From positions 42,907-106,906 of the forward strand of contig JABLXL010000003.1 in the NCBI GenBank assembly GCA_013178005.1: a DNA stretch of 64,000 nt, in the 5' to 3' direction. Below, one piece after another: positions 4,726-54,381 of this stretch. Position 1 is the first letter of the stretch, and each line of letters starts with the position of its first letter. A program made the translations under genes and the position numbers. The notes beneath the pieces were generated by a model, which was not told the origin of the DNA, did not search any database, and saw only the letters and a list, made by a program, of their open reading frames with translations. The DNA is from Actinomycetota bacterium (GTDB lineage Bacteria; Actinomycetota; Geothermincolia; Geothermincolales; RBG-13-55-18).

Positions 4726-5347
4726 CCACGCACATGTACGCCGGCTATCTTGCGGCCGGAACCCACTCTACGAGCCCCACAGCGAATGCTGTGGTTATAT
4801 CTGGCGAGAAAAAGCCCCATAAAAGGTGGAAGCAGCCGACCTTGGGAGCCAGCTGCTATCCGGGTGGGGCGTTGGACTTTTTTATCAGTCCTGTTCATAT
4901 ATTCGGCCATGAAAGAGTCGTTTTCCATCGGTCTTTGGTATTAGAAAACAGGCCTTTTCGGCGTTGAAAAAGGCTTTTTGGTAGTATTGCTTGAGCACTA
5001 CATGCCAAGGGGAAACCTGGAATCTGAGTAGGGGAGGAGGAATGGACGCCCCCGCCGGTTTTCACCCGAACGTTTCGGGAAGCCGATTTGCGCCTGGAAT
5101 GTGGCGGCGCTGATACCTCATGGTTTATATTATCCATAGGCCACACCGTCGGCGTGGAGGCTTTCGGGGGTATGAACTAGCGGCTGCGACGCGATTCTCA
5201 CGGCACCACCAGCCAGGGCTTTGGCAAGCCAAACGCGGTTTTCAGGCGTTCCCGGACTCCGGGCTCGGCGCTCCGGCTTTATCGGGAATCCTCCCGACGG
5301 CGGTTGGCGCGTTACCGACGGCGACACATAAAAAAGGGAGGGATCAG
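4702..5347. other. intergenic stretch of about 650 bp
   Basis: No supported gene. It contains a second terminator-like hairpin at 4951-4980 and an otherwise unremarkable GC-rich segment before the ligase ribosome binding site. In-frame upstream codons of the ligase lack family similarity. Confidence 0.5.
4951..4980 (+). terminator. terminator-like hairpin with T tract
   Basis: GCCTTTTC near 4952 pairs with GAAAAAGGC (4966-4974, one bulge), followed by TTTTTGG. No gene ends immediately upstream, so it may serve a small unrecognised transcript or be a remnant. Confidence 0.5.
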
Positions 5348-7069
5348 ATGGAAAAGAACTACCGCTGTTGGCCCAAGGGCGTGCTCAGGAACCTCACCTA
5401 CCCGGAGGTTCCCGTGCAACAGATCCTTCGCTCCGCGGCCCTGCAATGGCCATGGCGCAACGCCATCATCTTCGGGGGCATGGAGATCACCTTCCAGGAG
5501 CTCGACGCCCTTTCGGACCGTTTCGCCAATGCCCTGGCCTCCATGGGGGTGAAGAAGGGAGACCGCGTGGCCGTCCACCTTCCCAACTGCCCCCAGTTCG
5601 CCATCGCCTATTACGGACTGCTCAAGGCGGGGGCGATCTTCGTCCCCATGAGCCCGCTGCTCGCGGAGCGCGAGATAGATTTCCAGCTCAACGACGCCGA
5701 GGTAGAGACCTTTATCGGCCTGGATATGCTCTTCGCCGTTCCCCAGCAGGTTATACCGAGATCGCCCGTGAAACGAACCATCGTCGTGAGCCTGGCCGAT
5801 TGCTACCCGCCGCTATCCGCTCCCGTTAAGATGCTGCAGAAACAGCCGGTTCCGGAAGGGACCATCGATTTCGTATCGCTGGTGTCGGATTATCCCGCCG
5901 AACCGCCCCAGGTGGAGTTCGACGTCAAGGAGGACCTGGCCCACATCGCCTATACCGGGGGCACCACGGGCACCCCTAAAGGGGTGATGATCACCCATTA
6001 CAACGCGGTTGTCAACTGCTGCCAGTTCGCCTACTGGTTCGGCGGGGGAGACGTGCTCTACGAGGACGGGAAGTTCCTGGTCAAGCGGGAGGAGGGCGAC
6101 CGGGATGAGGACCACCCCGCGCGCCGGGCGGCCGAGATCTCCCTCATCGTGGTGCCGTGGTTCCACGCCATGGGCGTTATAGGCTACCTGTCCATGCAGC
6201 TACTGGGCGGCAACACCCTGGTGGTCTTCCCGCGTTTCGAGCCCACCGAGTACCTGCAGGCCATCAACAAGTTCCGCGCCACCGTGTTCGGGGGAGCCCC
6301 TCAGCTCTTCGTCCCCCTGGTGGAGAATCCCCTTTTCGAGGAGATCGACATGTCGGACATCCGCCTGGTGGCCTCCGGGGCGGCGCCCATACCGCATCGC
6401 CTGCTCGAGACCCTCATGGAGAAGATACCCGGGGTGATCTGTGAGGCTTACGGGCTCTCGGAATGCACCATGGGTTGCTGCGCCAATCCTCCCTCACGCG
6501 AGGGGTTCCGCCTCGGGTCCGTTGGCCTGCCCATGCAGGACACGGAGATAAAGATCGTCGACCCCGAAAAGGGCGAGGACGAGATGCCGGTAGGGGAGGT
6601 AGGCGAGATATGCATAAAGGGCCCCCAGGTTATGAAGGGGTACTGGAGGAAGCCCGAGGAGACGGCGGAAGTGCTGCGGGACGGGTGGCTTTACACCGGC
6701 GATATCGGCAAGTTCGACGAGGACGGGTACCTCTACATCGTGGACCGCAAAAAGGACATGCTCATCTACAAGGGCTATAACGTCTATCCGCGCGACCTCG
6801 AAGAGGTCCTCAACTCGCATCCCGCGGTAGCGCAATCGGCGGTGGTGGGGAAGTACGACGAGCGCTCCGGGGACATACCCATCGCCTTCGTGGAGCTCAG
6901 GCCGGGCGCCCAGGCCACCGAGGAGGAGTTGCTGGAGTACGCAAATGGGAAACTGGCGGCCTACAAGAAGATCCGCCTGGTGAGGATAGTGGAAGCGCTC
7001 CCGGCAAGCGGGGCGGGAAAGATCCTGCGGCGCGAGCTGAGGGAGCTGGCCCAGTCCTTCGAGCTGTAG
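5348..7069 (+). CDS. AMP-forming acyl-CoA synthetase (fatty acid-CoA ligase family), 573 aa
   Basis: Activates a carboxylic acid with ATP and CoA to acyl-CoA via an acyl-adenylate. The A3 P-loop is YTGGTTGTPKGVMITH, A5 is YGLSECTMG, A7/A8 is GWLYTGDIGKFDEDGYL followed by IVDRKKDM, and the catalytic A10 lysine is in GAGKILRREL. An unusual charged insertion (VLYEDGKFLVKREEGDRDED, about residues 236-255) lies between A3 and the next conserved block. ATG 5348 has GGGAGG at 5336-5341, and the protein then aligns from its usual N-terminus. It lies 1.9 kb from the acyl-CoA catabolic cluster and may supply its substrate. Chain length and branching cannot be read from sequence. Confidence 0.9.
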   Translation: MEKNYRCWPKGVLRNLTYPEVPVQQILRSAALQWPWRNAIIFGGMEITFQELDALSDRFANALASMGVKKGDRVAVHLPNCPQFAIAYYGLLKAGAIFVPMSPLLAEREIDFQLNDAEVETFIGLDMLFAVPQQVIPRSPVKRTIVVSLADCYPPLSAPVKMLQKQPVPEGTIDFVSLVSDYPAEPPQVEFDVKEDLAHIAYTGGTTGTPKGVMITHYNAVVNCCQFAYWFGGGDVLYEDGKFLVKREEGDRDEDHPARRAAEISLIVVPWFHAMGVIGYLSMQLLGGNTLVVFPRFEPTEYLQAINKFRATVFGGAPQLFVPLVENPLFEEIDMSDIRLVASGAAPIPHRLLETLMEKIPGVICEAYGLSECTMGCCANPPSREGFRLGSVGLPMQDTEIKIVDPEKGEDEMPVGEVGEICIKGPQVMKGYWRKPEETAEVLRDGWLYTGDIGKFDEDGYLYIVDRKKDMLIYKGYNVYPRDLEEVLNSHPAVAQSAVVGKYDERSGDIPIAFVELRPGAQATEEELLEYANGKLAAYKKIRLVRIVEALPASGAGKILRRELRELAQSFEL

Positions 7070-8992: not shown

Positions 8993-9409
8993 TTACAGGG
9001 GGCGGAAGGCCAGGAAGGTGCGCGCCTTGTCCCCCTCCCCGCGGTGCAGGAACTCCACCTTCATGGGCGTCCCGATCTTGATGGACTCGGGGTCGCGAGC
9101 GTCCACCCCCTCGATGCGGGCCACCATGCGCGGCCCTTCCGCCAGGGTCACCACCCCCGTGCAGTAGGGATTCTTGCGGTCGTACCCCTCCTCGATCATG
9201 AAAGATGGCCCGATGGAAATGCAGGTATAGGCGGCCAGCTCCCCCTCCCCCTTCAACTCGTGCCATTCCATGTCCTCGGAGCGGCATTCCAGGCAGAAAC
9301 GTCGCGGGGGCACGTAGATCTGTCCGCACTTCCGGCAGCGCGAGCCCATGAACTTATCCTCGTCAAGGTACTTGCGGTACGAGATATCGCTGAAAGGCCT
9401 CTCCTCCAT
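8993..9409 (-). CDS. DUF35 OB-fold/zinc-ribbon acyl-CoA-binding protein, thiolase partner, 138 aa
   Basis: An N-terminal helix is followed by a rubredoxin-like zinc ribbon (CRKCGQIYVPPRRFCLEC, about residues 25-42) and an OB-fold, the DUF35/ChsH2-type architecture. Members pair with SCP-x-type thiolases, or with hydratases in steroid side-chain degradation, and help bind acyl-CoA. The gene directly follows the thiolase (4-bp gap), the standard pairing, so an obligate complex is likely. All four cysteines are present. Confidence 0.9.
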   Translation of the reverse strand: MEERPFSDISYRKYLDEDKFMGSRCRKCGQIYVPPRRFCLECRSEDMEWHELKGEGELAAYTCISIGPSFMIEEGYDRKNPYCTGVVTLAEGPRMVARIEGVDARDPESIKIGTPMKVEFLHRGEGDKARTFLAFRPL

Positions 9410-9413
9410 TTCC

Positions 9414-10682
9414 CTACCTCCTCTCGAAAATGGTGAAGGTGCAGGTTCCGCCGGTGCCCCCCAGGTTCTGGGTGGCGCCTATATAGAGGTCCCTGCCCGG
9501 TATCTGGCGCTCTCCCGCCTCTCCCCTTAACTGTTTCCATACCTCGTACATCTGAGCCGTCCCCGTGGCGCCAACGGGATGCCCCTTGCACTTCAGCCCG
9601 CCCGAGGTGTTGATGGGCATGCGGCCCTCGCGGCGTGTCTCTCCCTCGGCGACGGCCTTATACCCCTCTCCCTCGCCGAAGAAGCCGAGGTCCTCGATGT
9701 GTATAAGCTCCGCGATACTGAAGCAGTCGTGCACCTCGGCGAACTGCACGTCTTTGGGAGTCAAGCCGGACATGCCGTAGGCCTCCGCCGCCGCCTGCTT
9801 GTTGGCCTCGAAGGAGGTGAGGCTGGGGCAGGCGTGCAGGCCCCTTCCGCTTCCCTGCCCGAAACCCACGATGTAGATGGGGTTGTCGGTGAAGCTCTTG
9901 GCCAGCTCTTCCGCCACCATGAGGATACAGCTGGCGCCGTCACTGATGGGGCAGCAGTCGTAGAGGTGCATGGGCCAGGCGACGGGAGGGTTGAAGCGGG
10001 GGTCAAACAGCGCCTCTTTCTCGTCCGCCCAGTCGGGCACCTGCTCCCCCTTCTTGGCCGCCTTGGCCTTGCGCGCCTCCATGAGGTCCCTGATGGTCTG
10101 CTTGAACTGCCCCTTGGGGTTCAAGGGGGCGTTCTCGTGGCTCTTGATGGTGATGTTCATGAGGTGCTCGCGCCCCGCCCCGTACTTGTGGAAATAGGCG
10201 GTGGCCAGCGCCCCGAAGACCCCCGGGAAAGTGTATCCGGCCTCGCCCTCATACGGTGAGGTCGCCAGGGCCAGCCCTTCGGTGACCTCCTCGGTGGTGC
10301 ACTTGGACATCTCCTCCACCCCGCCGGCAAGCACGATGTCGTACATGCCGGACGCGATGGCCATGAGGCCGTCGCGCATGGCCAGGGTGCTGGAGGCGCA
10401 GGCTCCCTCCGTGCGGGTAACCGCCCTGGGGACGATGCCCGTCAGGTCGGCGATGATCGGCCCCCAGTGCGCCTGGTGCACGAAGAAGTCGTTGCTGAAA
10501 TTGCCGATCCACGCCGCCTGGATATCCGCGGGGTCGAACCCCTTGTCCACGCTGGCCAGCATCTCGCTGAAGGCCTCGGCGAAAAGGTCCTTCGAGTCCT
10601 TGTCGGGGAACATGCCGAAGTTGGACATGCCCGCGCCGACGATGGCCACTCCCCTTCCGATCTTTCTCTTGCCCGACATCAT
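9414..10682 (-). CDS. SCP-x-type thiolase (acetyl-CoA acetyltransferase family), 422 aa
   Basis: Catalyses thiolytic cleavage (or condensation) of 3-oxoacyl-CoA. The nucleophilic cysteine is Cys95 in TEGACASSTLAMRDG; VHDCFSIAE holds the catalytic His; GGLKCKGHPVGATGTAQ holds the second His/Cys region. Length and the N-terminal VAIVGAGMSNFG match the SCP2/lipid-transfer thiolase subfamily, not classical FadA. Start: two consecutive ATGs behind GGAGG. It sits between the mutase small subunit and DUF35 and probably performs the last step of the cluster's degradation pathway. Confidence 0.9.
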   Translation of the reverse strand: MMSGKRKIGRGVAIVGAGMSNFGMFPDKDSKDLFAEAFSEMLASVDKGFDPADIQAAWIGNFSNDFFVHQAHWGPIIADLTGIVPRAVTRTEGACASSTLAMRDGLMAIASGMYDIVLAGGVEEMSKCTTEEVTEGLALATSPYEGEAGYTFPGVFGALATAYFHKYGAGREHLMNITIKSHENAPLNPKGQFKQTIRDLMEARKAKAAKKGEQVPDWADEKEALFDPRFNPPVAWPMHLYDCCPISDGASCILMVAEELAKSFTDNPIYIVGFGQGSGRGLHACPSLTSFEANKQAAAEAYGMSGLTPKDVQFAEVHDCFSIAELIHIEDLGFFGEGEGYKAVAEGETRREGRMPINTSGGLKCKGHPVGATGTAQMYEVWKQLRGEAGERQIPGRDLYIGATQNLGGTGGTCTFTIFERR

Positions 10683-10847: not shown

Positions 10848-11255
10848 CTACCCGGACACCTTGCGCCCCAGGTTCTCCTCGATGAACCTCACGATGTCCG
10901 CGGTCACCGTCCCGGGGCCAAAGACCCCGTCCATGCCTATCTCCTTGAGCTCCGCGTGGTCCTGCTCCGGGAAGACCCCGCCGATGAGGAGGAGGAAATC
11001 GCCGCGCGCCCCTTTCTCCTCCAGCTCGCGCACCAGCTCCCTCGCCCACTCCAGGTGCGCCCCCGAGTGCACCGAGAAGCCGATGACGTCCACGTCTTCC
11101 TGGATGGCCGCCTCCACCACCCCCTCCACGGTCTTGAACCCGAAGAAGATGGTCTCCATTCCCGCCTCGGAGAGGGCCTTGGAGACGGTCATTATCCCGC
11201 GCCAGTGCCCGTCCAAGCCGGGCTTGAACAGCAGCACCCTGGTTTTCTTTTCCAT
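10848..11255 (-). CDS. acyl-CoA mutase small subunit (B12-binding), 135 aa
   Basis: A stand-alone cobalamin-binding domain. GLDGHWRG carries the DxHxxG motif with His17 as the lower cobalt ligand, SVHSG is the second and IGGVFPEQDH the third (GG) B12 signature. Separate small subunits are typical of isobutyryl-, 2-hydroxyisobutyryl- and pivalyl-CoA mutases, and also of some archaeal methylmalonyl-CoA mutases. It follows the large subunit by 12 bp. The usual Asp after His (DGHDRG) is Trp here, which does not affect the ligand. Confidence 0.92.
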   Translation of the reverse strand: MEKKTRVLLFKPGLDGHWRGIMTVSKALSEAGMETIFFGFKTVEGVVEAAIQEDVDVIGFSVHSGAHLEWARELVRELEEKGARGDFLLLIGGVFPEQDHAELKEIGMDGVFGPGTVTADIVRFIEENLGRKVSG

Positions 11256-11267
11256 CTCTCCCCCTCC

Positions 11268-12941
11268 TCAGGCCACGAAGGGCAGTTGCCATATTCCCCA
11301 GACCTCGCGGTAAACGCCGGTTATCTCCCCCAGGGTGGCGCCGGCCGCGGTGAGCTCGCTCACCACGGGGAGGACGTTTTCCCTGCGCTCGCACACCCCG
11401 CGTAGCTGGTCCAGCAGGGCCGCCACCCTGCGGTTGTCCCGTTGCGACCTGAGATCCCGCAGGCGTTCCTTCTCGATCTCCGCCGCGCGGGGGTTGGTGC
11501 GGAAGGGCGGCGTGGGCTCCTCGCCCTCCATGACGTAGCAGTTGACGCCGATAACCCTTTCCTCGCCGCTCTCCTGGTCGCGACGGCGCTTGTTGAAGGC
11601 CTTGCTCATCTCGTTGAAGAGCCACCCGGTGTTGAGGGCCTCCACCACCCCGCCCATCTCCTCGATGCGCATGAAGTAGTCCCAGATGCGCTCCTCGAGC
11701 TCGCGCGTCAAGGCCTCCACGTAGTAGGACCCCGCCAGGGGATCCACCACGTTGGCCACCCCCGTCTCCTCCTGGATGAGCTCCTGGGTACGCACCGCCA
11801 GGCGCACCGATTCCTCCGAGGGCAGGCAGATGGCCTCGTCGTAGGAGTTGGTGTGCAGGGACTGCGTCCCCCCGAGCACCGCCTCCAGGGCCTGGTAGGC
11901 GGTGCGGATGATGTTCACCATGGGCTGTTGGGCGGTGAGAGAGCAGCCGGCCGTCTGCACGTGGAAACGGAAGCGGTAGGCGTCCGGGTTCTCCGGCTTG
12001 TAGCGCTCCTTCATCAGGCGGTACCAGAGCTTGCGCGCCGCGCGGTACTTGGCTATCTCCTCGAAGAAATCGCGGTGGGCGGAGAGGTGGAAGGCCAGCC
12101 TGTGCACGAAATCGTCGATCTTCCAGCCACGCCGCAGCAGCTCCTCGATGTGGGCCACGGCGTTGGCCAGCCCCATGCCTATCTCCTGCACCGCGTCGAT
12201 GCCCCCTTCGCGGTAATTGTAGGTGGTGAAGTTGATGGGGTTCCACCGCGGCGCCTCTTTCATGGCGGTGCAGTACTCGATGAGGTCACAGGCCAGCTTG
12301 AGCAAGTCCGCGGGCTTCAAGGAGCCCCAGGGGATGTATCCGATGGTCATGGTGAGGATGTCGTTCTGGGTGGTCCCCGCGAGCTGCTCCTTGCGCAGCC
12401 CGCGCTCCCTGGCCACGTTGAAATACATCGAGGTAACCGCGGCCGAGGTCATGGGCTCCACCACCAGGGCGACGCTCATGCGGTCGATGGGAAGGTTTTC
12501 CACCAGGGCCTCCACCCCGCGGATGGAATACAGGGGCACCCCCTCCTTGCCCACCTCGTGTGCGGCTCCGTGCACCTCCTGGTCCGGATCCACCCCCGAG
12601 AAGGTGAGGGAATCCACGGCCGCCGAGAACCCCGTCTCCCCCTCCTCGTAAAGCATGCGCCAGCGGTCGTTGGTCTCCTCGGGCGTTCCGTGGCCGCTGA
12701 ACATGCGTATGGTCCAGTACTTCCCTCGGTACATGGTGGGATAAACGCCGCGCGTGTAGGGGGGCTGCCCCGGAAAGCCGATATCCCTGAGGTAGTCTAT
12801 CCCCTCGGTGTCCAGCGGCGTGTACAGGTCCTTCACCGGTATGCCGGCGTCGGTCCTGAATTCCTCTTTGCGCTCCGGCCAGTCCTTTTTCGCCTCGCGC
12901 CACTCCTCGAGGCCTTTGCGTATCTCCTCCCTGTCCTCCAT
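11268..12941 (-). CDS. B12-dependent acyl-CoA mutase large subunit, divergent substrate site, 557 aa
   Basis: Homologous along its length to methylmalonyl-CoA mutase: WTIRMFSGHGTPEETN, MSVALVV, TQNDIL, QTAGCSLTAQ and TQSLHTNSYDEA are all recognisable. Substrate residues differ. The MCM tyrosine of RQYAG is Phe81. The arginine that binds the methylmalonyl carboxylate (after QNDIL in MCM) has no counterpart, because the segment QNDILTMTIGYIPWG is about three residues shorter. The catalytic His of GYHMQEAG is Asn242 (TYNYREGG). A neutral acyl-CoA substrate, possibly isobutyryl- or pivalyl-like, is more likely than methylmalonyl-CoA. No MeaB-type chaperone gene is nearby. Gene neighbours are beta-oxidation enzymes. 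Confidence 0.88.
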   Translation of the reverse strand: MEDREEIRKGLEEWREAKKDWPERKEEFRTDAGIPVKDLYTPLDTEGIDYLRDIGFPGQPPYTRGVYPTMYRGKYWTIRMFSGHGTPEETNDRWRMLYEEGETGFSAAVDSLTFSGVDPDQEVHGAAHEVGKEGVPLYSIRGVEALVENLPIDRMSVALVVEPMTSAAVTSMYFNVARERGLRKEQLAGTTQNDILTMTIGYIPWGSLKPADLLKLACDLIEYCTAMKEAPRWNPINFTTYNYREGGIDAVQEIGMGLANAVAHIEELLRRGWKIDDFVHRLAFHLSAHRDFFEEIAKYRAARKLWYRLMKERYKPENPDAYRFRFHVQTAGCSLTAQQPMVNIIRTAYQALEAVLGGTQSLHTNSYDEAICLPSEESVRLAVRTQELIQEETGVANVVDPLAGSYYVEALTRELEERIWDYFMRIEEMGGVVEALNTGWLFNEMSKAFNKRRRDQESGEERVIGVNCYVMEGEEPTPPFRTNPRAAEIEKERLRDLRSQRDNRRVAALLDQLRGVCERRENVLPVVSELTAAGATLGEITGVYREVWGIWQLPFVA

Positions 12942-13011: not shown

Positions 13012-14148
13012 CTATCTCAACAGGGCGCGCGAGATAACCAGCCGCTGCACCTGGTTGGTGCCCTCGTATATCTGCGTCACCTTGGCGTCGCGCATCATGC
13101 GCTCCACGGGATGGTCGCGCATGTACCCGTAGCCCCCCATTACCTGTACCGCGTCCGTGGTCACGCTCATGGCCACGTCCGAGGCCTTCATCTTGGACAT
13201 GGCGGAATACAGGGAGAGGTTGGGATCTCCCGCGTCGGCCATGGCCGCCGCCTCGTACACCAGCAGGCGCGCCGCCTCCACCTCCGTGGCCATATCCGCG
13301 AGCATGAAACCCACTCCTTGCAGAGTTCCGATGGGTTTCCCAAAGGCCTTGCGCTCCCTCGCCCAGGCCACCGCGGCCTCCAGGGCTCCCTGGGCGATGC
13401 CAAGCGCCTGCGCGCCCACCAGGGGACGGGAATTGTCCAGGGTCTTCATGGCGGTCACGAAACCGGTGCCCTCCTCGCCCAGGCGGTTTTCCGCCGGCAC
13501 CACGCAGTCCTGGAAGATCAGCTCCGCCACCTGGGCCCCGCGCATGCCCATCTTGTCCTCGATCTTCCCCGTGGTTATCCCGGGCTCATCCCCCACGCAG
13601 AAGGCGCTGATGCCTCGGTACCCCTTTTCGGGATCGGTCATGCAGAACACCGAGTGCACCTTGGCCAGCCCCCCGTTGGTGATGAAACACTTCTGCCCGT
13701 TGATCACGTACCGGTCCCCATCGCGGGTCGCCACGGTCTTGGTCGCTCCGGCGTCGGAGCCGGAGTCCCTCTCGGTGAGGCAGAAGGCGGCCAGCTTCTC
13801 GCCAGAGGCCACCTCGGGGAGGTACTTGCGCTTCGTCTCCTCGGAACCCGCGATGATGATGGGATACGCCGCCAGCTTCTGCACCACGAAGATGAGGGAG
13901 GAATTGGCGCAGACGCGGGCCAGCTCCTCGCCCACGATACAGCATGAGAGGAGGTCGGCGCCGGATCCGCCGTACTCCTCGGGGATGGCGTATCCCAGCA
14001 GGCCCTGGGAGGCCAGCAGCCTCTGGATATCCCAGGGGTACTCCCCGCTGCGGTCGATTTCCGCCGCCCGCGGCGCTATCTTCTCCTCCGCGAGCCTGCG
14101 TATCTCTCCCCTCAGGGCCTCGTGTTCCGGCTTGAGTATGAAACCCAT
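13012..14148 (-). CDS. acyl-CoA dehydrogenase, 378 aa
   Basis: FAD enzyme that makes 2-enoyl-CoA from acyl-CoA. Full-length ACAD fold: N-terminal helical domain, AFCLTERDSGSDAG and FITNGG (FAD/substrate strands), MGMRGAQVAELIF, and the C-terminal helical domain with GGYGYMRDHPVERMMRDAK. The catalytic base is Glu362 in IYEGTNQVQR, the position used by short/medium-chain and isobutyryl/isovaleryl enzymes. ATG 14148 has GGAGG seven bases upstream; longer in-frame starts lack family similarity. Electrons would go to an EtfAB pair not present in the window. Confidence 0.93.
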   Translation of the reverse strand: MGFILKPEHEALRGEIRRLAEEKIAPRAAEIDRSGEYPWDIQRLLASQGLLGYAIPEEYGGSGADLLSCCIVGEELARVCANSSLIFVVQKLAAYPIIIAGSEETKRKYLPEVASGEKLAAFCLTERDSGSDAGATKTVATRDGDRYVINGQKCFITNGGLAKVHSVFCMTDPEKGYRGISAFCVGDEPGITTGKIEDKMGMRGAQVAELIFQDCVVPAENRLGEEGTGFVTAMKTLDNSRPLVGAQALGIAQGALEAAVAWARERKAFGKPIGTLQGVGFMLADMATEVEAARLLVYEAAAMADAGDPNLSLYSAMSKMKASDVAMSVTTDAVQVMGGYGYMRDHPVERMMRDAKVTQIYEGTNQVQRLVISRALLR

Positions 14149-14454
14149 GTGGCATCCTCCGTTCTGTCTCGACGTCCCACGACTAACCACATTCCGCCTC
14201 CCCATCAACCCTCTCCGCGAGCCGCCCCTTGGCGACGCGTCGAGGGCGTCGCGCCCGGAGGCAACTCGCCCGGCAAGCGCTGAACGCTCCTCGCGCCGGC
14301 GGTTCGGATCCCGTCTCAGGCGCTCTTCCCAGCGGCGTCCCCGTCCCCGCTAATCCCGCTGCGCTTTTTCCGATCCGCGCTTCACCCGCTCGCCCGGAAC
14401 GATCCCCGCCCGGCGAGACGCGTAACAACCCGCGGACATGCCCCGGCCCTTTTC
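14149..14454. other. intergenic gap of about 300 bp
   Basis: GC-rich, no gene, no clear hairpin or promoter seen. The operon probably reads through. Confidence 0.4.
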
Positions 14455-15213
14455 CTAGAAGGTGAAGAGGCTGATCCCCCCGCTGACCTCGATGGCCTCT
14501 CCGGTCACGAAGCTCGCCTCGTCCGAGGCCAGGAAAGCGATGACCTCGGAGAGCTCGCGGGGATCCCCGGAACGGCGCATGGCCACCCGCTTTATGATGC
14601 GCTCGCGGAAGGGCTCGGCGACGTCGTAGAAGCTGCCCGCGTCGAAAACCCCCAGCACCACTGCGTTGCAGGTGATGTTCTTGCGCGCTCCCTCCAGGGC
14701 CACCGTCTTGGTCAGGCCTATGAGCCCCGCCTTGGTGGCGGCGTAGCTGCACTGGCCGAAACCCCCCATGGTCCCCGTCACCGAGGAGACGTTGATGATG
14801 CGCCCCCAGCCCCTCTCCGCCATGCCGGGAAAGACGGCCTTGATGAGCAGGAAAGGGGCGGTAAGGTTCACCGCCACGTCCGCGTCCCAGTCCTCCTTGG
14901 TCATGTCGGTGATGGTGATGGCGCGCACGATGCCCGCCGCGGCATTGTTGACCAGGATGTCGATTCCTCCCAGCTCGTTCTCCACCCTCTTCACGCCCTG
15001 GGCGATGGACTCCTCGTCCGAGAGGTCCATCTTGACCGCCAAGGCCTTGCGCCCCTTCTCCTCGATCTCCTTCGCCACCTCGGCGGCCCGGGCCTCGTTG
15101 CGGTTATAAACCAGGGCCACGTCAGCCCCGTGTTCTGCCAACACCAGGCCGTGCACCCTGCCCAGTCCCCCGGAACCTCCCGTCACCAGCGCGACCTTTC
15201 CCTCAAGTGACAT
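14455..15213 (-). CDS. short-chain dehydrogenase/reductase (3-hydroxyacyl-CoA dehydrogenase or FabG-like), 252 aa
   Basis: Rossmann enzyme: cofactor motif TGGSGGLGR (residues about 11-19), NNAAAG, catalytic Ser in INVSSVTG and Tyr/Lys in SYAATKAG. The N of the first strand is followed by YNRNEARA, where the Arg favours NADP(H), as in FabG. In this cluster the expected role is oxidation of 3-hydroxyacyl-CoA before thiolysis; a biosynthetic reductase role is the alternative. AGGAGC lies upstream of ATG 15213. Confidence 0.88.
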   Translation of the reverse strand: MSLEGKVALVTGGSGGLGRVHGLVLAEHGADVALVYNRNEARAAEVAKEIEEKGRKALAVKMDLSDEESIAQGVKRVENELGGIDILVNNAAAGIVRAITITDMTKEDWDADVAVNLTAPFLLIKAVFPGMAERGWGRIINVSSVTGTMGGFGQCSYAATKAGLIGLTKTVALEGARKNITCNAVVLGVFDAGSFYDVAEPFRERIIKRVAMRRSGDPRELSEVIAFLASDEASFVTGEAIEVSGGISLFTF

Positions 15214-15564: not shown

Positions 15565-16008
15565 CTATTCCCGACGTTCGCCTTCCTGTCCACCTTCCTC
15601 GCGCAAGGGCCTTCCGGTGTGATAAGCCCATCCGCGGCACCTTGCCACCAGCGTCCCCTCCGCGTCCTTTACCTCCATGTCATAGCAGCCCATCTTCCCT
15701 GCCCTGGCCACCAGCGAAACCTCCGCCGTCATCTCTCCTTCCACTCTCGGGGCCGCCAGGAAATCCACGTTCACCGAAAGGGCCATGGCCTTGGTGCCGA
15801 AGCTGTTGGCCGCCGCCCCGAAGGCCACGTCCGCCAGGGAGAACATCACCCCGCCATGCACCATCCCCATGAAATTGAGGTGTTCCTTATCAAGGCGCAT
15901 GGCCACCTTTGCCCAGCCCGGGCGTATTTCCACGAGTTCCGCGCCTATGCGCGCCGCGTAAGCGTCGGCGGCAATGATGCCGCGCACCTCCTCGGCGACC
16001 TCTTCCAA
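15565..16008 (-). CDS. PaaI-type hotdog thioesterase, 147 aa (TTG start)
   Basis: Hydrolyses acyl-CoA thioesters. The hotdog core is clear: HLNFMGMVHGGVMFSLADVAFG carries the PaaI motif (HGG, then Asp), followed by SVNVDFLAAPRVEG and GTLVARCRGWAYHTG. I chose TTG 16008 because it follows AAAGGAGGAGGAAGCAG and gives the normal family length; in-frame codons further upstream encode arginine-rich, low-complexity sequence. First structural gene of the acyl-CoA cluster, with an operator-like palindrome about 280 bp upstream. Confidence 0.85.
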   Translation of the reverse strand: MEEVAEEVRGIIAADAYAARIGAELVEIRPGWAKVAMRLDKEHLNFMGMVHGGVMFSLADVAFGAAANSFGTKAMALSVNVDFLAAPRVEGEMTAEVSLVARAGKMGCYDMEVKDAEGTLVARCRGWAYHTGRPLREEGGQEGERRE

Positions 16009-16440
16009 CTGCTTCCTCCTCCTTTGCCTGCGTCTTCTTCGCTCTTCCGTCCCGCCCTGACCTTCTCCCAGATCGCACCAGCCCCTATATACACGCGCGG
16101 CGAGCGGCCCTCCCATCGCCGGGTTCCGACGGAGCCCATACTCGACTGTATGGAATAACTTACCATACTGATGACTCCGAGGTTCCATGCCCCGCGAACG
16201 AGTCATCCCGGACCACCCGTTGCTTGCCCCTCGATCATGGCAACCGTTTCCGAAAATCCCGGGCACCAATTAAGGGGAAACGGAAAAACTGATATTAGTT
16301 TATCAGTTTATGAGCCCTTCGCAACCCTTTTCCGCGGGTCGCCCGTCTCTCCCGTACCTGGTCTTGTGACGGTATCGCTGTGCGTTGCCGTAAGCCCCGT
16401 TTTCTTCCGTAGGTTTAGGTGTTTGCCGGCTTTTCTGCCA
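16009..16440. other. regulatory intergenic region between TetR gene and acyl-CoA operon
   Basis: 430 bp without a gene. Holds the palindrome at 16286-16309 in a short AT-rich island, probably the promoter/operator of the thioesterase-to-DUF35 operon. Confidence 0.5.
16286..16309. promoter_or_regulatory. operator candidate: 9-bp inverted repeat AAACTGATA-N6-TATCAGTTT
   Basis: Perfect 9-bp arms with a 6-bp centre (TTAGTT) in an AT-rich island, directly downstream of a TetR gene and upstream of the operon it could control. Size and symmetry suit a TetR dimer site. Confidence 0.6.
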
Positions 16441-20119: not shown

Positions 20120-20365
20120 TCAATTGAGGCGTTCCGCAACGTCGCGCGGCGAGGGCACTTCGCAGCGCCAGGCATGCACCTCTCGCCCGCTGTCATCCAC
20201 CACCACGATGCTGGGCGTGCACAGCACGCTGTAGAAGGCCGCTTCGGCCAATCCGTCCACTTCCTCGATGTCGTATATCTCCGTGTGTGGGAAACGCCCG
20301 GCGACCTCCTTTGCGGCCGGACACTTATTGCAGTCCCGCTTCACGAAAACCTTCAGGTGCTGCAC
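20120..20365 (-). CDS. glutaredoxin/NrdH-like thiol redoxin of the NrdD operon, 81 aa (GTG start)
   Basis: Thioredoxin-fold mini-protein with active site CNKC (residues 12-15), TPSIVVVDDSG (cis-Pro loop), and a C-terminal helix. It follows AAAGGAGG and overlaps the nrdD 3' end by 41 bp. Small redoxins next to NrdD are used as reductants or for cysteine recycling in class III systems that do not use formate. That role is inferred from position. Confidence 0.85.
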   Translation of the reverse strand: MQHLKVFVKRDCNKCPAAKEVAGRFPHTEIYDIEEVDGLAEAAFYSVLCTPSIVVVDDSGREVHAWRCEVPSPRDVAERLN

Positions 20366-23300
20366 CTTCCTGACCTCCTTTCAGACTCGTGCGTACCCGG
20401 TCCTTGAGCTCCCCCACCTTGCCCTTGTTCCAGGTGGTTATCTTGGAGAAATAACCCACGATGCGCGTGATGCCGTATGTGTCGTCGGAACCGCAGTGCG
20501 GGCAGTTTTCGTGCAGGCCGCGGTGGGTGCGCCGGCAGTCGTTGCACACCGTGAACTCGGGCGAGAACGCGATCTGCGAGGAATGCGTGTTGCGGAAGGT
20601 CTTGATGACGAAGTTCTTGATGGACGCGGGATCCGGCTCGTGCTCGCCCAGCCAGATGTGGCATATGGCTCCCGCCTCGATGAGGGGGTGGAAGAGGCTC
20701 TGCTTCTGCACCCTCTCGATGTAGTCTATGTCCGCCTCCACGTTCAGGTGGACGCTGTTGGTGTAGTAGAACTCGTCGCGCTCGATATCCCCTTTCAGCA
20801 CCTGCACCGCCTGGGAGGGGTAGTATTTCATGTCCAGCTTGGCGAGCCGGTAGCCGCTGGACTCCGCGGGCGACTCCTCCAGGACCATGTTGATGCCGTA
20901 CTGCTCGGAGAGGCGCTTGCAGGTGAGGTTCATGTGCGCCACCACCTTGAGCCCGAACTTCAGGGCTTCCTGCGACTGGTGGAGCTCCATGCCCGTGTGG
21001 TACTGCACCATCTCGTTGAGACCGAGGAGCCCCGCCAGGTAGGTGAGGCGCTCGAGGCGCAGGTACGGCTCGCCGTCCTTGTCGTCGCAAAGCACCGAGA
21101 GCGGCCCCCTCACCCCGAGGTCCATGAGGCTGGCGATGAATTGCTTCTTCTGCAGGTGCGCCTTGGCCACCATCTGCATGGCCTTCTCAAGCTCGTGGAA
21201 CAGCACCTCGTCCGAGCCGTTGGCCTTGTAGGCGATACGCGGCATGTTGATGGTGATGTTCTGGAGGGCCGAGAAACGCATCCTCTCCGGGGTCATGGTC
21301 TCCTGCAGATCCTGATCCTTGAGCCTCAACTTGAGCCTGCAACACTGGGACACGGTTATCTCGTCCCCGCGGTCGAATACGAAGTAGGTTATGCCCTGCC
21401 TGGACGCGACCCTGCACGCGAGGTCGAGGAACTCCTCGTGCCCCTCAGTTTGGAAGAAGTCCTCGTTGATGTGGAGCAGGGGCTTGGGGAACACGAAGGT
21501 CTTCCCCATGGCGTCACCCTCCAGGTAGACCTCGAAGAGGGCTTTGAGGAAGGTCTGGGCCTCCTTCTCGTAGTCCTTGTAGGTCTTGCCCGTGTACACG
21601 CCGCCAGGCCCTATGGCAGGGGTATCGCGGAAATGCCGCGGCACGTTCCAGTAGAGGTTGAAGTCGGTGAACACCACCTGGCTGTTATGGGCGAAAACGC
21701 CGTCGCCGGTGAGGAAATTCTCCGTTCCCTCCACCCCGATATCGTAGACGTAGGGCTGATCCTCAAGCTCCTCGATGGAGCGGACGGACGCCGGGAGCAG
21801 GTTGGCGCTCCGCTCCAGGGCGTGGCTCAATTCCGTGAGCCGCTCATGCTGTCTGAGGGCCAGCTCCAGCCCATGCCTCAGCATGTTGAAGTTCGAGCCC
21901 AGCTGTCGCGCGTCGAAGAAATAGCTTGCCCCCTCGCCCTCGCCTTTTTCCTCCAGGGCGTGGGGCAAATACAAGGCATCGAGCGCCTCTTGCACCTCGA
22001 CCCCCTCGTATTCCGTTCCCCGGAGCGCCGTATCCGGCCTGATATGGCAGCTATGTACCGGGACGCGGCCGCTATCCAGCTCGCGCAACAAACCCCTGGC
22101 CGTGGAATAAGGGAGCCCGGCGTCCTCGACATATCTGCGACAGATCTCCGCGATGTCCTCGCGGTATAGTTGCTCGAGCAGGCGGACGTCCACGCATGCC
22201 AGGCGCTTTTCCACCTCGTCGCGCAGCTCAGCGATCTTTTCCGGCGTGATGCGGCCCGCTTTCTTCAAAGAGATATGGTCTCCGAGCGTCTCCTTGATCA
22301 ACTTCTTCAGGTGACGGTAGGAATACCTTTTCTGGCTGTAGACCCTGTCCGCCGACTTCGTCATCCTCACCCTCTCGCTCTCCTTGCCGGGATGGATGAA
22401 GAAGACCCTGTCGAAATGCTGCCTGCCGATGGTGAGCACGTGCCTTTTGGCGGATTTCTTCACCGCGACCCCATTGATGGTCGGCGGCTCCAGGCTGTCC
22501 GTCCTCAAGCTGGGCGTGGCTCCCAGCCGGGTGAAAGCAAACCATAGATGTGATTTCAGGGTTTCCGACACCGTGCTGCACCCGATGCGACCGGCGGAAA
22601 TATAGCCGTCTCCCGAAAGGTAGGCGGCGATTAATTCCCGCACTATCTCCGCGTCGCCCAGAAGGACCGCTGCGGGAATGCGCTTGTTTTCTGCTCCCCT
22701 GCCGCAGAGAGCCTCGAAGAGGGCGACGTGCGCCTTGCCGCCGAAATGGCAGGAGCCGTCGCGGACCACGCAGGGCACCCCGAAAACACGCTCAACGCAA
22801 AGCGCGGCATCCTCCTCCAGGCGACGGTCGAAGAGGTGCAGGCGAACCTGGGAACCCAGGCTTCCCTCCGCGACATAATAGCCCAGCAGCCGCGCAAGCT
22901 CCGGCGTCACCTCGAGACGTCGGGGGATGCCGTACCTGCTGCGGGCCCTGTCCACCACGAACACCTTTCCGTTCTCCTCCACGGCTCCGCGCCCCTCCAG
23001 CAGTCGCAGCGCGTCTATGGGGCCCGGCGAGAAATCGATATCGTTGATATCTATGACCGCCGGCGTGAGCACCGTTTCGGGGTTCTCCCTGGGGAGCGCC
23101 TTGACGATTCGTCCGTGCTCGTCGAAGGCGAACAGGGAGTGGTTGTCGGTCACCTTTACCCTCTGGCCCTGGCCCGTGGTCACCTCCACGATGCGGTGGT
23201 TGTTCGCGTGCCTTATGGCCGCGTAGATGCGCGCGAAGCGGGTTTTTCCCGTATGGTGGTCGAAGCTAACGGCATAGTAACGGTCCCCCTCCACGGGGAC

Positions 23301-24863
23301 GCTGGCCTCGCCCTCGTCGCCGGTGAAGGACTCCACGAAAGGCCCGATCTCCACCAGGTCCAAGCTGCCCTTCAAACGGTCGTATACGAATATCTTCTCG
23401 TCCGAGCGCAGGGATCCCCTTGCGCCGGCGAGCTGGTTGAATTCATAAATGAGCATCTGGGCAAGCTGTTTTATGCGGTCGTACCCCAGCCCCACCAGGT
23501 AGGGGGCGAAGAACATGTTAACCGCCTCCCAGCCTATGGCCCCCGCGTAGTGGGACTGCAGGGTGGAGGCCATCTTCACCATGTGCCCTATGAGCACCTC
23601 GGGATGCTTGGCCGGCCTCGAGGTGCTGGTTATGTTGGGCAGGGAGATACCGTATTTCTTTATATAGTCGAGGCTGTGGCCTCCGCAGTTGTGGGAATAT
23701 ATGCCGTTCGCGATGAGGGTGCCGGAAGCGGTGGTGACGTCGTAGATGTAGGCGTCCAGGACCTCCACCGGCTCCGCCATCACCACGCGCGCGCGGTTCA
23801 CCGCGGGTCGCGAGCCCCGCGTCCTGGGCGCAGAAGCGCGTGGTGCGCGGGCGGCGCCCGCCACGAGCTCGTTCATCCTCTGGTGGGCCAGCAGGAGGTC
23901 CTCGGCGGTGAAGCGGAACTTGAAGGTCACTGCGTTGGCTTCCAGGAGATGGGTGATGTCCAGCTCCTCGAGGCCCCTTTCCCGGCCCTCGCCCACCTCG
24001 ATGGTCTCCACCTCGTCCCCCGGACGCACCATGGAGGCGGGCTTGACGTCGCCCGAGGTTATCACCGGGTGGTCGTGGGTCACCACGCAGTGCTTTCCGT
24101 CGGAAGTGGCCAAAAAGATCATCTCCTTGCCCAGGCGGTCTTTCTTGACCACCCGCTTGACCTCCGTCCAGTTGCCGCCGCGGTCAAGCATCTCCAGGCG
24201 CGAGGGGTACTTGACCCTGACCGTGGGCTCGGGCCTGGTTTCCCCTTCCAGGAGGTGGTAGAGCTGTTCCATGGTGGTGGTGAACACCAGGGGCGATCCC
24301 TTCACCCTCCAGTGAACCACCGTGTCCCCAAGGTAGGAATACGGCCGGATGATGAAGCCCAGGTCGTGAAGGTGTATGTCGCCCACCATGTGTGCCCTCG
24401 CGATATCCTCCGAGAACACCTTGCGAAGGGCGAATTCCTTGAGGATGGCCTCGGCAAGGGTGAGGTTTATGGACTCCGGGTTGTGGGTGGTGTTGCTGTT
24501 CTCTTTGTTGGCGCTGGTGATGATCTGCTCCACGTCGTACATGGGAAGGCCGAGGTGGGAGTGGCGCTTGTGCATGGTTCCCAGGCCGCGCTCCAGCAGC
24601 TCCAGGTCCACCAGCTCCCGGATTATGGAGGTGGTGACGGTGTTCAAGTGCCCCTCCACAATCCGCTGCTCCACCCTGTCCGCTATGAGCCTGGCCAGCT
24701 CCGGGCTCGCGTCGGTTTCCAGGATGAGCGAGTCGACGATCTTGTTCTTGTCCCAGAGGTTTATCTCCTCCTTGGAGGAGGTGCTCACCAGGAGGGCTAT
24801 GTCCGTGGCGTCCTCCGCCCTTTCCCTTCTCTTCAGCACTCTTATGTTGCTCGCAGCAGACAA
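20325..24863 (-). CDS. nrdD: anaerobic (class III) ribonucleotide reductase with two inteins, 1512 aa precursor
   Basis: Reduces NTPs to dNTPs without oxygen. Exteins: ATP-cone (about 5-105), then the ten-stranded barrel. Segments 1-175, 393-483 and 1061-1512 join to a 718-aa enzyme, the normal NrdD length. The C-terminus has the zinc site CNDC...CPHC (about 1440-1457) and the glycyl radical motif RIVGYF (Gly1470) followed by TTWNKGKVGE. Cys1174/Cys1175 in VSQCCRL are candidate active-site cysteines. Inteins interrupt after PY175 and after GARG483. Part of the nrdR-nrdD-redoxin-nrdG-nudix-DUF3786 operon under NrdR boxes. Confidence 0.95.
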   Translation of the reverse strand: MSAASNIRVLKRRERAEDATDIALLVSTSSKEEINLWDKNKIVDSLILETDASPELARLIADRVEQRIVEGHLNTVTTSIIRELVDLELLERGLGTMHKRHSHLGLPMYDVEQIITSANKENSNTTHNPESINLTLAEAILKEFALRKVFSEDIARAHMVGDIHLHDLGFIIRPYSYLGDTVVHWRVKGSPLVFTTTMEQLYHLLEGETRPEPTVRVKYPSRLEMLDRGGNWTEVKRVVKKDRLGKEMIFLATSDGKHCVVTHDHPVITSGDVKPASMVRPGDEVETIEVGEGRERGLEELDITHLLEANAVTFKFRFTAEDLLLAHQRMNELVAGAARAPRASAPRTRGSRPAVNRARVVMAEPVEVLDAYIYDVTTASGTLIANGIYSHNCGGHSLDYIKKYGISLPNITSTSRPAKHPEVLIGHMVKMASTLQSHYAGAIGWEAVNMFFAPYLVGLGYDRIKQLAQMLIYEFNQLAGARGSLRSDEKIFVYDRLKGSLDLVEIGPFVESFTGDEGEASVPVEGDRYYAVSFDHHTGKTRFARIYAAIRHANNHRIVEVTTGQGQRVKVTDNHSLFAFDEHGRIVKALPRENPETVLTPAVIDINDIDFSPGPIDALRLLEGRGAVEENGKVFVVDRARSRYGIPRRLEVTPELARLLGYYVAEGSLGSQVRLHLFDRRLEEDAALCVERVFGVPCVVRDGSCHFGGKAHVALFEALCGRGAENKRIPAAVLLGDAEIVRELIAAYLSGDGYISAGRIGCSTVSETLKSHLWFAFTRLGATPSLRTDSLEPPTINGVAVKKSAKRHVLTIGRQHFDRVFFIHPGKESERVRMTKSADRVYSQKRYSYRHLKKLIKETLGDHISLKKAGRITPEKIAELRDEVEKRLACVDVRLLEQLYREDIAEICRRYVEDAGLPYSTARGLLRELDSGRVPVHSCHIRPDTALRGTEYEGVEVQEALDALYLPHALEEKGEGEGASYFFDARQLGSNFNMLRHGLELALRQHERLTELSHALERSANLLPASVRSIEELEDQPYVYDIGVEGTENFLTGDGVFAHNSQVVFTDFNLYWNVPRHFRDTPAIGPGGVYTGKTYKDYEKEAQTFLKALFEVYLEGDAMGKTFVFPKPLLHINEDFFQTEGHEEFLDLACRVASRQGITYFVFDRGDEITVSQCCRLKLRLKDQDLQETMTPERMRFSALQNITINMPRIAYKANGSDEVLFHELEKAMQMVAKAHLQKKQFIASLMDLGVRGPLSVLCDDKDGEPYLRLERLTYLAGLLGLNEMVQYHTGMELHQSQEALKFGLKVVAHMNLTCKRLSEQYGINMVLEESPAESSGYRLAKLDMKYYPSQAVQVLKGDIERDEFYYTNSVHLNVEADIDYIERVQKQSLFHPLIEAGAICHIWLGEHEPDPASIKNFVIKTFRNTHSSQIAFSPEFTVCNDCRRTHRGLHENCPHCGSDDTYGITRIVGYFSKITTWNKGKVGELKDRVRTSLKGGQEGAAPEGFREAGLQ
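21684..23414 (-). other. intein 2 in NrdD, 577 aa, with LAGLIDADG endonuclease
   Basis: Residues 484-1060 of the precursor. N-terminal block A SLRSDEKIFVYD with Ser1; block B VTDNHSLF near 571-578; LAGLIDADG motifs LLGYYVAEG (about 659-667) and AAYLSGDGYI (746-755); C-terminal blocks YVYDIGVEGTENFLTGDG then VFAHN followed by Ser+1. Splicing joins GARG to SQVVFTDFNLYW. All splicing residues (Ser1, His, His-Asn, Ser+1) are present, so it should be active; the homing endonuclease also looks intact. Confidence 0.92.
23688..24338 (-). other. intein 1 in NrdD, 217 aa mini-intein
   Basis: Residues 176-392. Block A SYLGDTVVHWRVKG (Ser1), block B VTHDHPVITSGD (TxxH), C-terminal VEVLDAYIYDVTTASG then GIYSHN with Cys+1 (CGGHSLDYIKKYG). 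No LAGLIDADG or other endonuclease; a basic/proline-rich linker (about 339-359) sits where it would be. Splicing joins FIIRPY to CGGHSLDY. Confidence 0.9.
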
Positions 24864-51582: not shown

Positions 51583-52692
51583 CTATGACAGCAACTGCAG
51601 CACCGTCTGGGGCACCGCGTTGGCCTGGGCCAGCATGGCCGTGCCCGCCTGGATCATGATCTGGTTGCGGGTGAAGGAGACCATCTCCGCCGCCATGTCC
51701 ACGTCGCGGATACGCGACTCGGACGCGGCGAGGTTCTCCTGCGCCACCCCCAGGTTGGCGATGGTGTGCTCCAGGCGGTTCTGCACCGCACCGAGCTGTG
51801 ACCTCTGGGTGGAGACGGTGGTGATGGCCGTGTCCAGGGTGGCGATGGCCGTCTCCGCACCCGTGGCGGTGCTCACGTCCAAGGTGTCGATGTTCAGTCC
51901 CTCCGCGGTCATGTCCCCGATGCTCACCGATATGGTCTGGTTCTGGTTGGCGCCGATGTGCAGGGACATGGAGCCCGAGCTCACGGTGAACCCTCCCGAG
52001 CCGCTGGCGATGCTCTGGTTGTCGATGGCGCCGTTCACCGTGACCTTGATGCCAAGGGAGGCGAAGGTCACCACGGCGGTGTTGAACCCCGAGGGCGGGG
52101 TGATGACCACGGACTCGGTGGTGGTGCCGTCGGTGAGCGTGAGGGTGTTGGTGCCGCTGGCGTAGGAGAGGGCGTACCCCGTTCCCGGGGTGGCCCCCAC
52201 CGACTCTATGCTGGCGATACCCGAGGCGGCCACCAAGGATACCCCGGCGCCGGTGATGGTGGAACCGAGGCCCCCCTCCAGCAAGGTCTGGTTGTTGTAA
52301 GAGGTGGACTGGGCGATGCGCGTCACCTCGGTGATGAGGGCGCTCACCTCCTCCTGGACGGCGTCGCGGTCCTCGTCGGTGAGAGACCCGTTGGCCGCTT
52401 GCACCGCCAGCTCCCTCATCCTCTGCAGGATGGAGTGGGTTTCCGCCAGCGCGCCTTCCGCGGTCTGGATCAAGGAGATCCCGTCCTGGGCGTTGCGGGA
52501 GGCCTGCTGCAGGCCCCTCACCTGGCTGCGCAGCTTCTCGCTGATGCTCAGTCCCGCGGCGTCGTCGGCGGCGCGGTTGATGCGCAGGCCGGAAGACAGT
52601 CTCTCCAGGGACTTGGAGAGGTTGTTGTCCGTCTGCGTCAGGTTACGGTGCGCGTTGTACGCGGCGATGTTCTGGTTGATCCTGAGACCCAT
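51583..52692 (-). CDS. fliC: flagellin FliC, copy 1, 369 aa
   Basis: N-terminal INQNIAAYNAHRNLTQTDNN, LERLSSGLRINRAADDAAGL, C-terminal SRIRDVDMAAEMVSFTRNQI then ANAVPQTVLQLL. Domain D2 (about 165-265) is Ser/Thr-rich, a likely glycosylation target. Identical to copy 2 in all but the last residue (Ser). AAGGAGGATGATGAGGT leads to ATG 52692. Confidence 0.97.
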   Translation of the reverse strand: MGLRINQNIAAYNAHRNLTQTDNNLSKSLERLSSGLRINRAADDAAGLSISEKLRSQVRGLQQASRNAQDGISLIQTAEGALAETHSILQRMRELAVQAANGSLTDEDRDAVQEEVSALITEVTRIAQSTSYNNQTLLEGGLGSTITGAGVSLVAASGIASIESVGATPGTGYALSYASGTNTLTLTDGTTTESVVITPPSGFNTAVVTFASLGIKVTVNGAIDNQSIASGSGGFTVSSGSMSLHIGANQNQTISVSIGDMTAEGLNIDTLDVSTATGAETAIATLDTAITTVSTQRSQLGAVQNRLEHTIANLGVAQENLAASESRIRDVDMAAEMVSFTRNQIMIQAGTAMLAQANAVPQTVLQLLS

Positions 52693-53271: not shown

Positions 53272-54381
53272 TTAACGCAGCAACTGCAGCACCGTCTGGG
53301 GCACCGCGTTGGCCTGGGCCAGCATGGCCGTGCCCGCCTGGATCATGATCTGGTTGCGGGTGAAGGAGACCATCTCCGCCGCCATGTCCACGTCGCGGAT
53401 ACGCGACTCGGACGCGGCGAGGTTCTCCTGCGCCACCCCCAGGTTGGCGATGGTGTGCTCCAGGCGGTTCTGCACCGCACCGAGCTGTGACCTCTGGGTG
53501 GAGACGGTGGTGATGGCCGTGTCCAGGGTGGCGATGGCCGTCTCCGCACCCGTGGCGGTGCTCACGTCCAAGGTGTCGATGTTCAGTCCCTCCGCGGTCA
53601 TGTCCCCGATGCTCACCGATATGGTCTGGTTCTGGTTGGCGCCGATGTGCAGGGACATGGAGCCCGAGCTCACGGTGAACCCTCCCGAGCCGCTGGCGAT
53701 GCTCTGGTTGTCGATGGCGCCGTTCACCGTGACCTTGATGCCAAGGGAGGCGAAGGTCACCACGGCGGTGTTGAACCCCGAGGGCGGGGTGATGACCACG
53801 GACTCGGTGGTGGTGCCGTCGGTGAGCGTGAGGGTGTTGGTGCCGCTGGCGTAGGAGAGGGCGTACCCCGTTCCCGGGGTGGCCCCCACCGACTCTATGC
53901 TGGCGATACCCGAGGCGGCCACCAAGGATACCCCGGCGCCGGTGATGGTGGAACCGAGGCCCCCCTCCAGCAAGGTCTGGTTGTTGTAAGAGGTGGACTG
54001 GGCGATGCGCGTCACCTCGGTGATGAGGGCGCTCACCTCCTCCTGGACGGCGTCGCGGTCCTCGTCGGTGAGAGACCCGTTGGCCGCTTGCACCGCCAGC
54101 TCCCTCATCCTCTGCAGGATGGAGTGGGTTTCCGCCAGCGCGCCTTCCGCGGTCTGGATCAAGGAGATCCCGTCCTGGGCGTTGCGGGAGGCCTGCTGCA
54201 GGCCCCTCACCTGGCTGCGCAGCTTCTCGCTGATGCTCAGTCCCGCGGCGTCGTCGGCGGCGCGGTTGATGCGCAGGCCGGAAGACAGTCTCTCCAGGGA
54301 CTTGGAGAGGTTGTTGTCCGTCTGCGTCAGGTTACGGTGCGCGTTGTACGCGGCGATGTTCTGGTTGATCCTGAGACCCAT
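53272..54381 (-). CDS. fliC: flagellin FliC, copy 2, 369 aa
   Basis: Same sequence as copy 1 except the final residue (Arg, then TAA). The duplication boundary falls inside the last codon. First gene of the flagellin-to-fliM locus; the leader and ribosome binding site are identical to copy 1. Confidence 0.97.
   Translation of the reverse strand: MGLRINQNIAAYNAHRNLTQTDNNLSKSLERLSSGLRINRAADDAAGLSISEKLRSQVRGLQQASRNAQDGISLIQTAEGALAETHSILQRMRELAVQAANGSLTDEDRDAVQEEVSALITEVTRIAQSTSYNNQTLLEGGLGSTITGAGVSLVAASGIASIESVGATPGTGYALSYASGTNTLTLTDGTTTESVVITPPSGFNTAVVTFASLGIKVTVNGAIDNQSIASGSGGFTVSSGSMSLHIGANQNQTISVSIGDMTAEGLNIDTLDVSTATGAETAIATLDTAITTVSTQRSQLGAVQNRLEHTIANLGVAQENLAASESRIRDVDMAAEMVSFTRNQIMIQAGTAMLAQANAVPQTVLQLLR

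Follow-up and report, generated by a model that had tools for sequence, protein, structure and literature searches.

An acyl-CoA mutase subfamily with Asn in place of the catalytic His and a candidate replacement His one strand away

In a 64,000-nucleotide stretch of DNA from an actinomycetotal genome (contig JABLXL010000003.1, positions 42,907 to 106,906; here called the window), two adjacent genes encode the large and small subunits, MutL and MutS, of a B12-dependent acyl-coenzyme A (acyl-CoA) mutase. MutL has Asn242 where methylmalonyl-CoA mutase (MCM) has its catalytic His244, together with a His at position 285; this Asn242/His285 pairing is strict in the clade of the window protein and loose in the wider superclade. 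Judging from sequence, we give about an even chance to the reading that MutLS is an adenosylcobalamin (AdoCbl) mutase in which His285 would stand in for His244 and whose substrate is a short-chain acyl-CoA that is branched and uncharged, likely similar to isobutyryl- or 2-methylbutyryl-CoA.

Results

Identification of MutL and MutS

The frame, profiles and alignment identify mutL (11268..12941, reverse strand; 557 residues from an ATG start) as the gene for the substrate-binding TIM-barrel subunit, while mutS (10848..11255, reverse strand; 135 residues) is recognized by its frame, its profile and its DGHWRG and SVHSGAH motifs as the gene for the B12-binding subunit. MutL scored 563 bits against PF01642 (curated cut-off 22.1) and 532.3 bits against TIGR00641 (cut-off 303.8), and PF02310 was found in MutS with 85.8 bits, above its cut-off. 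Against NF006944, the MCM equivalog, MutL reached 440.4 bits, under the cut-off of 876, a model of the 721-residue one-chain form that puts a large subunit alone at a disadvantage. On this score, and given a separate MCM-type mutase in the genome, we rejected the identification of MutLS as the housekeeping MCM.

Active-Site Residues of MutL

In MCM, Tyr89 and Arg207 hold the substrate carboxylate, and His244 is regarded as a key acid and radical-protecting residue in the radical rearrangements of this type. In our alignment the three sites are occupied by Phe81 (within RMFSG), Tyr202 and Asn242 (within TTYNYREGG; codon at 12216..12218, reverse strand, computed from position 12941 and the residue number). 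The site of Tyr202, 10 residues past Q192, is R207 in MCM and Gln in the types assigned to isobutyryl-CoA mutase (ICM). The preliminary description of this DNA had named these changes (the QNDIL-adjacent Arg missing, the RQYAG Tyr replaced by Phe81, the GYHMQEAG His by Asn242) and had numbered them correctly. They do not reflect conserved residues displaced by misalignment, as there are no gaps at 81, 242 or 285 and a one-residue insertion falls after 202. A pseudogene or a sequencing error is likewise ruled out, by the intact frame and by the invariance of Phe81 and Asn242 in 121/121 sequences (the window and 120 listed homologues).

Residue 202 varies among the 177 mutases with Asn242 (Asn-types), being Tyr in 148, Phe in 19, Ile in 7, Cys in 2 and Leu in 1. 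Among mutases with His242 (His-types), those with Tyr81 have Arg202 (38/38) and those with Phe81 have Gln202 (52/52), so that the Phe81/Tyr202 combination of the window matches neither pattern. Phe81 does vary in the wider Asn242 superclade, as sampled in the 512-sequence set described below. Overall, 34 columns distinguished Asn-types from His-types at the cut-offs applied. The absence of the carboxylate-holding Tyr/Arg pair allows the inference of a neutral substrate, as proposed in the preliminary description.

Pairing of Residues 242 and 285

By alignment, His285 (codon at 12087..12089, reverse strand, computed in the same way) sits at the site of MCM Phe287, a near-invariant Phe in canonical mutases. 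This second change had been overlooked, and the earlier statement that the catalytic His is missing was to that extent incomplete: altered catalysis is plausible, but His285 accompanies Asn242 throughout the clade of the window protein. We found no paper on MCM residue 287 in the open-licence literature.

Pairs at 242 and 285 were counted in the lists from protein searches (each restricted to the 120 best of some 8000 candidates scored) plus the fetched loci. In the resulting 275 sequences, Asn242 was paired with His285 in 177/177 cases, His242 with Phe285 in 92/93 and Gln242 with Met285 in 5/5; in the lone His/Phe exception (L004) a gap was placed at 285. Two more protein searches widened this to a redundant set of 512 sequences, with 255 Asn/His, 124 His/Phe, 93 Gln/Met, 14 Asn/Asn, 12 Asn/Asp, 6 Pro/Asn and 3 Asn/Phe pairs, and one case each of His/Asn, Asp/His, Ser/Asp, Asn/Ser and Asn/Gln.

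The Gln242/Met285 proteins (93/93 in the larger set) are a second kind of mutase without His242. Examples are L002, from the host genome itself (contig 36, 29340-30992), L106 and L113-L115; bearers among the matches listed include Actinomycetota and Thermodesulfobacteriota, and L113 is 81% like a mutase named Candidatus Anoxymicrobiaceae, class Geothermincolia. The Asn/Asp, Asn/Asn and Pro/Asn relatives (in part P0165-P0235), some of them with a broken QNDIL motif (ANDM), are an unexplored radiation whose named bearers are Chloroflexi and Thermodesulfobacteriota. In some Asn/His relatives (P0180, P0203 and P0204), EGDP replaces the QNDIL site.

Phylogeny

A FastTree phylogeny of 378 non-redundant sequences (the 512 after filtering at 93%, with 3 dropped as too short) grouped the Asn-types with a small number of derivatives carrying Pro, Ser or Asp, as a single clade (214 tips, support 1.0). 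Three Asn/Phe sequences were found at its base, and the window protein lay inside a pure Asn/His clade of 101 tips, again with support 1.0. A more careful IQ-TREE analysis of 63 rows, with the active-site columns removed, gave Shimodaira–Hasegawa-like approximate likelihood ratio supports of 99 for the superclade, 97 for the clade above the Asn/Phe rows, 100 for the window's clade and 97 for a single Gln/Met clade, which is separate and lies within the His-type half of the tree. If the His-type is taken as ancestral, the simplest reading is the order His/Phe, Asn/Phe, Asn/His.

The B12 Subunit, the Fold and the CoA Site

Both subunits are altered in the Asn-type mutases. The claim that the B12-binding motifs are kept holds for DxHxxG and GG of MutS, but not for the usual DGHDRG, which has become DGHWRG, nor for SxL, which has become SxH. 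In loci with mutS within 3 kb (four Asgard loci were fetched twice, with possible double counts), the variable residue of DGHxRG was W in 55/55 Asn-types versus D in 34/34 His-types, and the second motif was SxH in 53/55 versus SxL in 31/34.

A sequence search of solved structures with MutL returned 11 distinct sequences, all named MCM, HCM (2-hydroxyisobutyryl-CoA mutase) or IcmF. The predicted fold of MutL matches the solved mutases, with HCM 4r3u as the best match in both structure and sequence; the H244A mutant of MCM (1e1c) was also among the structural matches. Most of the CoA-contact residues are kept.

Distribution of the Subfamily

The Asn242 mutases are a large unnamed subfamily and not a one-off. 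With the A1 profile, we took as members the proteins scoring at least 830 bits, the other mutases listed being mostly below 660. Members occurred in 19/59 genomes (the host and its relatives) and, by score, in 57/227 genomes of the Asgard archaea, the phylum of a Helarchaeota locus (L011). At 30 Asgard loci (L137-L166) the sites were read and all were Asn-type; the other 27 genomes rest on scores of at least 879 bits. Two further Asgard hits were not counted: G413 (708 bits; L186), which is a Tyr/Arg/His-type, and G414 (700 bits), whose sites were not read.

The 344 genomes from the phylum of L034 contained three members in two genomes (G093 and G150) and a sister form in G105. At E ≤ 1e-205 there were none in 250 genomes (phylum of G066) or in 348 genomes (phylum of G063), empty results of a kind that prove little. 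Common mutases predominated in a scan of genome contigs, with 3 Asn-types among the best 80 of 593 matched loci. The homologues listed for MutL include Syntrophoarchaeum butanivorans, Lokiarchaeota and Helarchaeota; the list for the sister form includes Syntrophoarchaeum, Methanolliviera, Thermodesulfobacteriota, Dehalococcoidia, Chloroflexi and Peptococcaceae. L118 (731 bits) is not an intermediate form, as it belongs to the sister branch. In G105 (contig 135, 1-4757; L135), a His/Phe-type and an Asn/His-type mutase stand in tandem, each with its own B12 subunit, and two successive rearrangements are possible there.

Gene Neighborhood and Host

The genes around mutL and mutS form an island on one strand, in the order thioesterase, short-chain dehydrogenase/reductase (SDR), acyl-CoA dehydrogenase, mutL, mutS, thiolase and oligonucleotide/oligosaccharide-binding (OB) protein. 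The acyl-CoA dehydrogenase (13012..14208, reverse strand) has short-chain/butyryl-CoA dehydrogenases among its solved relatives; the SDR (14455..15213, reverse strand), of the 3-oxoacyl/acetoacetyl-CoA reductase type, would act as a 3-hydroxyacyl-CoA dehydrogenase; and the 4HBT-family acyl-CoA thioesterase (15565..16269, reverse strand) probably has its true start inside the frame. All three are conserved neighbors. On the other side lie an archaeal-type thiolase (9414..10682, reverse strand; Thiolase_C_1), whose nearest solved relative is the acetoacetyl-CoA thiolase 6esq, and a DUF35/ChsH2-type OB-fold partner of thiolase identified by profile (8993..9409, reverse strand). An AMP-forming acyl-CoA ligase, also identified by profile, is encoded on the opposite strand (5120..7069, forward), and a ligase at least 85% identical to the query used adjoins the island in 4/12 actinomycetotal stretches (L128-L131).

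Neighbors were scored by tblastn in 12 actinomycetotal and 23 Asgard stretches, several of the latter cut by contig ends. The former had mutS in 12, the thioesterase and the SDR in 10 each, the dehydrogenase in 9, and the archaeal-type thiolase with its OB protein in 7. Three of the five stretches without the latter two genes had a BktB/PhaA-type thiolase between the SDR and the dehydrogenase; one thiolase type thus seems to replace the other, a sign that the 3-ketoacyl-CoA is short. The Asgard stretches had mutS in 22, MeaB in 17, a different acyl-CoA dehydrogenase in 12, EtfB in 10, a CoA-transferase in 7 and an adenosyltransferase in 3. An acyl-CoA dehydrogenase is therefore a partner in both domains, though missing from many stretches. 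One stretch with both mutase and dehydrogenase also encodes an EtfA with ferredoxin-type 4Fe-4S domains (L182:17548-18759).

The host assembly comprises 3.61 Mb in 98 contigs, with the window on contig 23, and also codes for mutases of the MCM type, the ICM type (L001) and the Gln242/Met285 type. The window contains an anaerobic ribonucleoside-triphosphate reductase (20325-24863, reverse strand) split by an intein that carries a LAGLIDADG-like domain, and this reductase suggests an anaerobic lifestyle of the host. Elsewhere in the window, two flagellin genes (51583-52692 and 53272-54381, reverse strand) are identical at 1106/1110 bases.

Discussion

Proposed Reaction

If MutLS is a live AdoCbl mutase, as its own B12 subunit, the MeaB neighbors and the largely intact CoA site suggest, MutS would deliver cob(II)alamin and the 5′-deoxyadenosyl radical, and the CoA-thioester group would migrate as in other PF01642 mutases. 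Phe81 and Tyr202 would exclude a free carboxylate. Asn242 may orient the thioester carbonyl, while His285, on predicted strand 6 and beside the residue just past strand 5, may take over hydrogen bonding to this carbonyl or its protonation. We favor the conversion of branched to linear C4-C5 acyl-CoA; the linear product could then be taken up by the acyl-CoA dehydrogenase encoded next to mutL, by a hydratase from another part of the genome, by the SDR and finally by the thiolase.

Several observations weigh against this proposal. With regard to the pathway, no enoyl-CoA hydratase was recognized in the island, the thioesterase is without a clear role, no dehydrogenase was present in the flanks of about 1.5 kb at 4/19 loci, and the queries used recovered nothing but mutL and mutS in three archaeal, non-Asgard stretches (L132-L134). 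The CoA site differs from that of MCM in having Ala158, Val160 and Ala283 for Ser, Thr and Ser (the Ala at 283 is shared with HCM), and Thr197 takes the place of the Lys in QNDILK. As for the pairing, the three basal Asn/Phe members (P0210, P0213 and P0237) mean that Asn242 does not depend on His285, and in one related branch most pairs are Asn/Asn, Asn/Asp or Pro/Asn; since Asn/Phe and Asn/Asp relatives exist, the superclade as a whole is independent of His285. Mutual information with average product correction places 285 fifth, not first, among the partners of 242. Non-His242 residues have only two origins on the IQ-TREE tree, one for Asn and one for Gln, too few for a statistical proof of coevolution; an independent-pairs test had 1-2 pairs, could not attain significance and was rejected as proof. 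A Pagel-type likelihood ratio of 23.7 (p = 9e-5) lends weak support, from a tree in which the trait columns were included and Gln had two separate origins.

Alternative Explanations

A somewhat improbable alternative, which we nevertheless take seriously, is that 242 and 285 form a substrate-recognition pair, in which residue 285 would bind a polar uncharged group (hydroxyl, keto or amide) and Asn242 alone would hold the carbonyl. It differs from our proposal only in the role of 285, and the likelihoods that we attach to the readings do not sum to one. In the Asn242 superclade, position 285 varies among mostly polar residues (H, N, D, S or Q), with Phe in the three basal members, and residue 202 and the QNDIL motif vary widely too, as such a role might lead one to expect. 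However, 285 is His in 101/101 non-redundant tips of the window's clade, which is stricter than a specificity site needs across two domains of life. At the other extreme, a catalytically dead or regulatory homologue, comparable to the beta chain of bacterial MCM, would fit the loss of His244 from its usual place, but we regard it as very improbable indeed: a B12 subunit adjoins in 12/12 actinomycetotal and 22/23 Asgard stretches, MeaB in 17/23, most CoA-contact residues are retained, and the invariance of Phe81 and Asn242 speaks for purifying selection.

The remaining readings assign MutLS a known substrate. The ICM types (IcmA-like and IcmF, assigned by motif and not by assay) share with MutL a Phe at 81 and the lack of the carboxylate-binding Arg, but have Gln202, His242 and Phe285. 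The Phe81 and the short-chain beta-oxidation neighbors would suit an ordinary isobutyryl-CoA mutase with a drifted active site and unchanged chemistry; this we consider unlikely, given the 34 dividing columns, the changed small subunit and the separate ICM-type gene L001. The latter also counts against our own proposal, and another function or direction would be expected because the genome keeps both MCM-type and ICM-type mutases. For a 2-hydroxyisobutyryl-CoA mutase, the 3-hydroxybutyryl-CoA formed could go directly to the SDR and the thiolase, which would complete the route, and 4r3u is the closest solved match. Yet the active-site residues of HCM are Ile90 and Asp117, and two HCM-like sequences from Xanthobacter and Methylibium (L187 and L188, annotated as methylmalonyl-CoA mutase, which we take to be HCM) have Ile81, Asp108, His242 and Phe285 versus Phe, Ala, Asn and His in MutL; the HcmAB small subunit (4r3u) has DGHDRG versus the DGHWRG and SxH of MutS. 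An acyl-CoA dehydrogenase, the common neighbor in both domains, would moreover be superfluous. Taken together, HCM activity appears decidedly improbable.

Relation to Known Mutases and Implications

Our comparison with characterized kinds of mutase covered MCM, HCM and the ICM types. MCM (1req/4req; human 2xiq) shares with MutLS the PF01642 fold and the B12 domain, but its Tyr81/Arg202 pair and His242 are all missing from MutL. The Gln242/Met285 mutases (L002 and L113) resemble MutL in lacking His242 and in having 285 changed alongside, to Met in their case and to His in MutL. The earlier remark that no characterized mutase combines all three changes agrees with what we found: we recognized neither such a mutase nor a paper on this subfamily in the open-licence literature, which leaves out subscription papers, and the solved-structure matches are MCM, HCM and IcmF.

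Somewhat less probable than not, but more far-reaching, is the reading that this whole subfamily, which anaerobic bacteria have in common with Asgard archaea, has shifted its catalytic imidazole from strand 5, at whose end His244 stands, to strand 6 (His285), with the cobalamin subunit re-tooled (DGHWRG and SxH), to act on a neutral acyl-CoA that is not among the substrates known so far; the Gln/Met, Asn/Asp and Pro/Asn branches would then be further unexplored radical mutases working without either His. A natural subfamily that lacks His244 but has a possible substitute on the neighboring strand makes the needs of the thioester carbonyl in radical migration directly testable, and the natural forms available for such tests are graded (His/Phe, Asn/Phe, Asn/His and Gln/Met). 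Many named database entries of the Asn242 subfamily are labelled methylmalonyl-CoA mutase, so that wherever an Asn242-type gene was the one counted in such anaerobes, a propionate pathway deduced purely from annotation may be mistaken. New substrates, in turn, would broaden the synthetic use of B12 mutases.
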